Origin: an archaeon
Lineage (GTDB): Archaea; Micrarchaeota; Micrarchaeia; Anstonellales; Anstonellaceae
Assembly (NCBI GenBank): GCA_020056635.1
Contig: JAGVHI010000016.1
Span: forward strand, 68,702 to 107,179
Length of the DNA stretch: 38,478 nucleotides
Direction of reading: 5' to 3'
This document shows positions 11,856 to 13,421 of this stretch, in pieces. Position numbers and translations under genes: made by a program. Under the pieces are notes generated by a model that saw only the letters and a list, made by a program, of their open reading frames with translations, had not been told where the DNA came from and did no database searches. Every line of letters begins with the position of its first letter. Positions within the stretch are counted from its first letter, which is position 1.

Positions 11856-11899
11856 TCGGAAGGGCGCTGGCTCGGCATCCCGGAGCCTGTTACACCGGA

Positions 11900-11907
11900 T
11901 TATAAAC
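11900..11907 (+). promoter_or_regulatory. TATA box upstream of the trpB2 leader
   Basis: TTATAAAC is the only clear TATA element between the gene ending at 11855 and trpB2. With usual archaeal spacing, transcription would begin near 11928-11933. The mRNA would then carry about 170 nt before the trpB2 ATG, including the short leader ORF at 11950-12024. Confidence 0.6.
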
Positions 11908-11949
11908 CTTCATCGCAGCAATATTCACGCTAAATAAGCAGGTGAGACC

Positions 11950-12024
11950 ATGCAAGAAAAAGGACTTCCATTGAGCGCAGCGCTTGTCTCCAGCATGGCA
12001 TGGCTTTGGCGGCCCAAAAACTGA
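11950..12024 (+). CDS. Possible Trp-codon leader peptide of trpB2 (24 codons)
   Basis: A 24-codon ORF starts with ATG after AGGTGAG (11940-11946), the same style of Shine-Dalgarno site used by trpB2 itself. Codons 18 and 20 are both UGG in the context AWLWRP, very near the 3' end, and the ORF stops with TGA at 12022. The second Trp codon lies in the 5' arm of a 5-bp hairpin: TTTGG 12005-12009, loop CGGC, CCAAA 12014-12018. Three T5 runs follow (12025, 12045, 12051). This arrangement resembles a translation-sensed attenuator for a tryptophan biosynthetic gene. It could instead be a chance ORF in a 5' UTR. No protein-level evidence is available. Confidence 0.45.
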   Translation: MQEKGLPLSAALVSSMAWLWRPKN

Positions 12025-12055
12025 TTTTTCGCTTCTGCTTCGAATTTTTCTTTTT
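12025..12055 (+). terminator. Three T5 runs between leader ORF and trpB2
   Basis: T5 runs at 12025-12029, 12045-12049 and 12051-12055 lie in a short pyrimidine-rich stretch. Archaeal RNA polymerase terminates at T-rich stretches with little need for a hairpin, so this is a plausible conditional terminator. A 5-bp hairpin ends 6 nt before the first run. No promoter follows it, so trpB2 depends on read-through. Confidence 0.4.
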
Positions 12056-12101
12056 CCCCAAGCTTCAGCTACGGCAATTCCAACAAAAATAGGTGATTAG
12101 A

Positions 12102-13421
12102 ATGAAAAATGGGAACGATTCTGTGAAAATATTGCTTGATGAGAACGAGGTGCCAAGGCAGTTCTACAACATACTGCCAGACTTGCCGCACCCACTTGCG
12201 CCCCCGCTGCATCCTGGCACCGGAAAGCCGGCCTCCCCCTCCGATTTCGAGGCGATTTTCTCAAAAGCGGTGATTGCGCAGGAAATGTCAAGCGAACGGT
12301 TTATTCCAATCCCCGGGGAAGTGCGCGATGCGCTGCTGCGCTCAGGTAGGCCCAGCCCGCTCTTCCGCGCGCGCAGGCTTGAGGCAAGGCTCAAAACCCC
12401 TGCAAAGATCTATTTCAAGCACGAGGGCCTCAACCCCTGCGGGAGCCACAAGCCCAATACTGCAATCGCGCAAGCGTATTACAACATGAAGGAAGGAGTC
12501 GAGCACCTTGTGACCGAAACCGGCGCAGGGCAGTGGGGAACCGCACTTTCCTATGCATCATTGCTATTCGGGCTTGATTGCAAGGTGTTCATGGTGCGCA
12601 CCTCGTTTGATTCCAAGCCGTACCGCAAGATGCTCATCGAGACGTATGGCGCAACAATATTCGCATCCCCGAGCAGGGAAACGAAGTTCGGGCAGAAAGT
12701 GCTCTTGGAAAAACCAGACCACCCCGGCTCGCTTGGCATTGCGATAAGCGAAGCAATCGAGTGCGTGGTCTCGGACCCTAAGAAAAAGAGCAAATACTCG
12801 CTTGGCAGCGTGCTCAACCACGTGCTTTTGCACCAGACAGTGATTGGGCAGGAAACCTCGCTGCAGCTTGCGATGGCGGATGAAAAGCCCGATTACGTGA
12901 TTGGGTGCATAGGGGGCGGGAGCAATTTTGCCGGAATCGCATTCCCGCTCCTGTACGACAAGCTCAAGGGGAAAAACAATGCCCAATTCATTGCAGTCGA
13001 GCCCGAATCGTGCCCCTCCACCACTAAGGGTGAGTTCAAGTACGATTTTGGGGACACTGCTGGCATGACCCCCCTGATAAAAATGTACACGCTCGGGAAG
13101 GATTTCATTCCCCCCTCCATACACGCAGGCGGCTTGCGATACCACGGGATGGCGCCGACCGTTTCAGCGCTTGTAGCTGAGAAACTGGTGCACCCAGTTT
13201 CCTACGGGCAAAAGGAAGTGTTCGAGGCAGGGGTGCTCTTCGCGCGCACAGAAGGGATTGTAGCTGCGCCGGAATCCTGCCATGCAATCAAGGCTGCAAT
13301 CGACACTGCGCTTGAATGCAAAAAACGCAACGAGGCAAAAACGATAGTGTTCAACCTAAGCGGGCACGGGCTCTTGGATTTGGCAGGCTATTCCCAGTTC
13401 CTCGAAGGAAAAATGCAATAG
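12102..13421 (+). CDS. trpB2: Tryptophan synthase beta chain, TrpB2 type
   Basis: TrpB condenses indole with serine to make tryptophan, using PLP. This 439-residue protein is of the TrpB2 type: an extended N-terminus ([19 protein letters not shown]), the PLP lysine in [13 protein letters not shown] (Lys117 from the chosen start), [15 protein letters not shown], the phosphate-binding [10 protein letters not shown], and the family segment [19 protein letters not shown] 12102 follows AGGTGA (12091-12096). GTG 12093 is in frame but overlaps that site, so I reject it. No trpA, other trp gene or indole source is nearby, so it may act alone on salvaged indole or with distant genes. The upstream leader ORF suggests control by charged tRNA-Trp. 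Confidence 0.93.

Follow-up and report, generated by a model that had tools for sequence, protein, structure and literature searches.

CUU is the slip codon of bacterial RF2 (prfB), whose autoregulatory +1 frameshift site reads CUU_UGA_C. In Ty1, the site CUU_AGG_C gives 40% +1 frameshifting (PMC5009743), and slippage at CUU is there combined with a slow sense codon that is read by a rare tRNA and sets a fixed Gag-Pol ratio. Until now, frameshifting at hungry codons (Gallant; PMC5009743, PMC8211752) was known purely as a mishap in starved cells. Atkins et al. (2016) noted that it might make starvation-specific proteins, but that 'no examples are known' (PMC5009743). A 2021 review of archaeal recoding describes hungry frameshifting as general and lists only one archaeal −1 case, in fucA1 of Saccharolobus (PMC8211752). 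Among open-licence papers, we found nothing relevant on frameshifting in Micrarchaeota or on frameshift-controlled amino-acid operons.

The Micrarchaeota leaders described here resemble each of these systems in part. Taken as a whole, the system is likely one in which the leader senses Trp by programmed +1 frameshifting at a hungry codon, the same physical event as that seen in starved cells. As in RF2, a P-site CUU would slip beside a slow A-site codon, the +1 shift falls near the start of a gene, and the product would relieve the slowness; an SD-like AGGG, possibly a stimulator, precedes CUU in the GRDLL cassettes of some leaders (AGGGATTTACTT). Unlike in RF2, the A-site codon is a sense codon (UGG, CAC, or CAU) that would report amino-acid supply, the AGGG lies 5 nt from CUU and is absent in the locus that we began with, and several genes and regulators are involved, with two shifts in series, in archaea. 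As in Ty1, CUU would slip beside a sense codon that is read slowly, but in Micrarchaeota that codon stands for the amino acid that the pathway makes. fucA1 likewise represents programmed frameshifting in archaea, but it is a −1 shift in one gene without amino-acid sensing. Finally, as in trpL/hisL attenuation, a short leader ORF with codons for the regulated amino acid stands before biosynthetic genes, but the Micrarchaeota leaders have no terminator or antiterminator, and the output would be a change of reading frame. If this reading is true, it would provide the first natural gene switch that uses starvation-induced (hungry-codon) frameshifting, and would join attenuation and T-boxes as a further form of ribosome-based amino-acid sensing, in a lineage with little known regulation.

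The stretch of DNA analyzed (38,478 nucleotides; hereafter the window) is part of contig C5 of the Micrarchaeota MAG G000, and the closest trpB2 records bear the name Micrarchaeota. Its trpB2 gene (12102..13421; all features given here are on the + strand) encodes a TrpB-like PLP enzyme (NCBIfam NF009057, E=3e-210; TIGR01415, E=2e-194) and has its own Shine-Dalgarno (SD) sequence, AGGTGAT (12091..12097). Upstream, a TATA box, TTATAAA (11900..11906), is adjoined on its upstream side by a probable operator, TGTTACAC (11888..11895). An SD sequence, AGGTGAG (11940..11946), of the kind found before most leader ORFs of relatives, precedes a 24-codon leader ORF in frame 0 (MQEKGLPLSAALVSSMAWLWRPKN; 11950..12024), which ends with a TGA (12022-12024) four codons past its second Trp codon. 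The two TGG codons, codon 18 (12001..12003) and codon 20 (12007..12009), are both followed by C, and the second forms part of CTT TGG C (12004..12010), the heptamer at which a +1 frameshift is proposed. From this site, a +1-frame ORF of about 31-32 codons (12005..12100) continues to a TAG at 12098-12100, one base 5' of the trpB2 ATG, with the trpB2 SD inside its 3' end. No known domain was recognised in the 32-residue +1 product of the window, and the window leader has no SD-like stimulator just 5' of CTT. The letters of a small hairpin, TTTGG/CGGC/CCAAA (12005-12018), and three T5 runs (12025-12029, 12045-12049, and 12051-12055) are also present. The sequence-only reading from which we started had listed the TATA box, the leader SD and ORF, both UGG codons, the hairpin letters, the T5 runs, and trpB2, and each was confirmed at its position; the open +1 frame was not among them.

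Chance alone seldom gives this arrangement. When 11900-12101 was dinucleotide-shuffled 20,000 times, an SD-led ORF that had TGG close to its end, with the +1 frame open as far as the trpB2 start, appeared in 13 shuffles, and in none (0/20,000) if CTT had to precede the TGG or two TGGs were required. Ahead of biosynthetic genes in the window, a Trp leader with an open +1 frame was found only at trpB2.

With ample charged tRNA-Trp, ribosomes would decode both TGG codons and terminate at the TGA. When Trp-tRNA is scarce, a ribosome would pause at UGG with its A site empty; the peptidyl-tRNA would slip from CUU to UUU, and the +1 frame would then be read via GGC. We found tRNA-Trp(CCA), tRNA-His(GTG), and tRNA-Gly(GCC), the last of which would read this GGC codon. 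In the window, shifted ribosomes would stop one base before the trpB2 ATG and feed trpB2 translation or transcript survival, the likely output being either translational coupling, with ribosomes delivered to the trpB2 start, or protection of the U-rich gap by the ribosomes that cover it; elsewhere, the product of the same shift would be the enzyme or a small regulator of HTH or AbrB type. For the window locus alone, we hold the frameshift reading to be probable, with less confidence than for the system, because its +1 product has no recognised domain, its nearest relatives have no leader, and the evidence comes from comparing sequences.

About 20 Micrarchaeota loci have an SD-led ORF that stops just past a Trp codon, at which a +1 shift opens onward reading to one of three destinations: a short ORF that ends at the trpB2 start, an HTH or AbrB regulator without a usable start, or the enzyme itself (trpB2 or trpE). 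In most cases a slippery P-site codon and a slow A-site codon stand together as CTT_TGG or CTT_CAY; several Trp HTH cases have CGG or CGC (CGN_TGG), not CUU, before TGG. The window heptamer CTT TGG C recurs in G058, G059, G065, G066, G042, G033, G094, G286, G057, and G075.

First, the loci closest in form to the window have the short ORF. In G059 (MNRQFGICKQKPSGMIWLWRD), G058, G065, and G066 (..VCLWR), SD-led leaders end in CTT TGG CG, and the +1 frame stays open until a stop codon that adjoins or overlaps the trpB2 ATG; the G059 and window leaders have SxMxWLWR in common. The +1 ORFs of G058, G065, and G066 are 46, 45, and 46 codons long, each with a stop that overlaps the ATG, and that of G065 contains a frame-preserving indel. 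Between G058 and G066, codon changes in the +1 frame are 9 synonymous and 8 non-synonymous, compared with 3/11 and 5/10 in the other frames, a synonymous excess that may be read as a weak sign of coding. G069 also has a Trp-rich leader, with a +1 frame that closes 105 nt too soon. The same frameshift sensor could have a different output in the window, transcriptional polarity: ribosomes stopping at 12022 would expose a U-rich stretch to FttA/aCPSF1, the archaeal termination factor, and shifted ribosomes would cover the transcript up to trpB2. The T-rich interval 12025-12055 falls exactly in the segment that is translated only after a shift, as polarity would have it, but the T-runs are not kept in related short-ORF loci, and we regard this output as possible but doubtful.

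Second, in many loci the +1 frame encodes a regulator. It is an HTH protein before trpB2 in G042, G052, G081, and G080, and a protein of AbrB/MazE fold in G026, G033, and G094; Pfam matches of the trans-frame products reach E=2e-6 for HTH and E=1e-6 for AbrB/MazE. The stop of these regulator-type ORFs usually overlaps the next start codon. The same leader-regulator arrangement precedes a trpE-trpG-trpD operon in G077. The genome of the window holds a second case on contig C25 (L284, leader ATG near 42821), where an HTH ORF follows an SD-led ATG and only a +1 shift, at ATT TGG C, joins the two. One G057 HTH (C137) with W was not included among the cases, owing to an ambiguous frame relation.

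Third, the enzyme itself may lie behind the shift. In G286, G089, and G085, no in-frame start of trpB2 follows the upstream stop before the conserved N-terminus is reached, and its translation would need a shift, at ATG..GAG TTA CTT TGG C, ..TGT CTT TGG G, and ..TGT CGT TGG C, respectively. G083 trpE is a like case, its sole in-frame start candidate being a GTG without an SD; an alternative in-frame start is possible in G090 trpB2, G053 trpE, and G087 AbrB. These enzymes and regulators bear on another idea, that stalling alone acts, for example by freeing the SD of trpB2 or shielding the mRNA, and that the open +1 frame of the window is incidental. The SD of trpB2 and the domainless +1 product would suit it; however, at five loci the open +1 frame reaches a stop at the ATG, one of these loci (G065) has the frame-preserving indel, and homologous arrangements encode regulators or an enzyme in the +1 frame only. 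We consider stalling alone to be unlikely.

The choice of codon was examined at 36 Micrarchaeota trpB2 loci by scanning every sense codon for an SD- and ATG-led ORF ending at most 14 codons on, with the +1 frame open to trpB2. TGG gave hits in 12 genomes and CTT, which is linked to it as its neighbour, in 10; AAA, the highest of the unlinked codons, had 8; with a 6-codon limit, the counts were 11 for TGG, 7 for CTT, and 5 for the next. For a −1 shift, TGG scored in 2 genomes, and −1 frameshifting was rejected as an alternative, with neither TGG nor CAY enriched. At 76 trpB2 loci outside Micrarchaeota there was no convincing case, only GC-rich false positives. A second mechanism, considered for f20/f21/f22/f24 because a wHTH gene there begins within the Trp codon of a leader ('CAATGG'), was set aside as probable chance, the wHTH having its own start. 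Likewise, in other families a winged-HTH gene stands before trpB2 and the Trp codon of an upstream short ORF overlaps its start (L126, L127, L129, L114, and L115), likely by chance.

Finally, the leaders have a histidine counterpart. For an out-of-sample search, we used a profile built on the three AbrB products of Trp type (alignment A1); it picked up more AbrB ORFs with no usable start, many of them before histidine genes and with CAY in place of TGG. Their neighbours are a complete his operon in G064 (L197), hisD in G063, G055, G049, G091, G050, G086, and G017, and hisG in G060 and G072 (identities of hisD, hisG, hisI, and trpE are from Pfam/NCBIfam). These leaders have CTT or GTT followed by CAC or CAT where the Trp type has CTT-TGG, as in G063 (MVNGRDLL>IGRDLV>IRLDKKARLVLPLEIR). 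Where the regulator is one frame off there is one His site, and where it is two frames off there are two successive His sites, typically 19 nt apart, with the second in the frame reached by the first shift. A His +1 path was present in 25/25 AbrB genes tested, and in 21 the start of this path had an SD before it. An in-frame start with an SD occurred in 0/25, and 18 had no in-frame start codon of any kind. In the GRDLL cassettes the AGGG lies 5 nt before CTT, and the motif GGGRTKTNCTTCAY gave 59 matches, compared with 7 for a reversed control (43 genomes, one family). Some his enzymes have a shift site of their own: hisG of G060 and G072, hisI of G072, and hisD of G059 and G017. hisG has no in-frame start codon in G060 or G072; these two genes, the trpB2 genes of G286, G089, and G085, and the AbrB ORFs are cases in which a conserved downstream product would be reachable only by a shift. 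Frameshifting would account for many his and trp genes without a start codon, which are liable to be mis-annotated as pseudogenes.

The sequence-only reading had proposed a Trp-sensing attenuator before trpB2, with a ribosome stalled at UGG holding a hairpin open or covering the transcript and so allowing read-through. The sensor is probably real, and the mechanism named is most likely wrong. What held up is a translated leader with Trp codons ahead of an archaeal trpB2, as an attenuator would have, and the recurrence of Trp-ending leaders in Micrarchaeota; the T5 runs, too, are as attenuation would have them. Transcription attenuation by the hairpin and T-runs is nevertheless very improbable, because the leader RNA is less structured than its shuffles (z=+2.74; 200/200 shuffles fold at least as well), terminator-like sites number 0 against 0.8 expected, with neither an intrinsic terminator nor a competing antiterminator found, and the Rfam search of the leader matched no family, giving only a sub-threshold snoRNA-like match on the other strand. 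T-box, riboswitch, and other Rfam leaders were dropped on the same Rfam result. Moreover, the hairpin and T-runs are not conserved in G059, G058, and G066, and attenuation leaves the start-less trpB2 and hisG genes and the double His sites unexplained. Assembly indels, constitutive recoding unlinked to starvation, or chance are least credible of all, for although all genomes compared are MAGs, the shift is always +1 at a pathway-matching codon in dozens of independent genomes from many families, Trp for trpB2/trpE and His for hisD/hisG/hisI, with two sites where two shifts are needed.

Under the frameshift reading, the regulators may act at elements beside their promoters. TGTTACAY (or CGTTACA) lies just 5' of the TATA box at 10/10 trpB2 loci with HTH-type or short-ORF Trp leaders and is essentially absent from that promoter place elsewhere. 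The promoter of the C25 HTH gene, TGTTACGCAGATTTTTAAAG, resembles that of the window trpB2, TGTTACACCGGATTATAAA (TGTTAC-TATA). The element also occurs at Trp-type HTH genes of G057, G075, G077, and G099, and not at generic HTH paralogs. This distribution suggests that the HTH product may bind TGTTACAY as a putative operator. AbrB-type loci (L197, L183, L122, L168, and others) share TAGTGGGAAA directly at the TATA box, which is probably their autoregulatory operator. His-type AbrB regulators also occur upstream of hutH, the gene for histidine ammonia-lyase (L170/L296 in G037:C2; L271 in G293:C18), where the regulator may hold back the degradation of His when it is in short supply. Further members of the His-linked set are a GNAT-like protein and radical-SAM-like proteins (L278 in G030, L274 in G104, and L273 in G107; L272 in G085, L270 in G016, L283 in G084, and L169 in G088), some with their own NTT_CAC site and without an in-frame start. 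A 338-aa protein without a Pfam/NCBIfam match stands behind a CTT CAT shift site in a His-linked cluster (L239, G081:C115).

In a trpB2 tree, the window grouped with the leader-bearing G059, G080, and G069 and with a leaderless clade of the same family (G013 and G016-G019). Asked of relatives, whether the ORF with its Trp codons is kept has a divided answer: it is absent in the nearest readable family members (G013, G016-G019, G002, G005, and G012) and present in G059, G058, G065, G066, G042, G052, G080, G081, and more. Leaders appear to have been gained and lost frequently, since the leader label needs 8 changes over 35 rows of the tree. In place of the leader, these nearest family members often have AATGTA..TACATT-like palindromes, perhaps repressor sites, which occur at promoters of Micrarchaeota trpB2 genes, mostly leaderless ones (L002/L031, L004, L119, L121, and L124).

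Across Micrarchaeota, we think it likely that programmed +1 frameshifting, at whichever codon specifies the scarce amino acid, is a general sensor, for Trp, His, and perhaps Phe and Cys, with enzymes and HTH/AbrB regulators placed behind one or two CUU-hungry-codon cassettes and made only in shortage. Tyr and other continuations of GRGATTTACTT were judged not to be leaders. The GRDLL-X cassette does occur before HTH genes with CTT TTC (Phe; L324, G061:C22) and with CTT TGC (Cys; L294, G053:C44), and these candidate Phe and Cys versions are leads.
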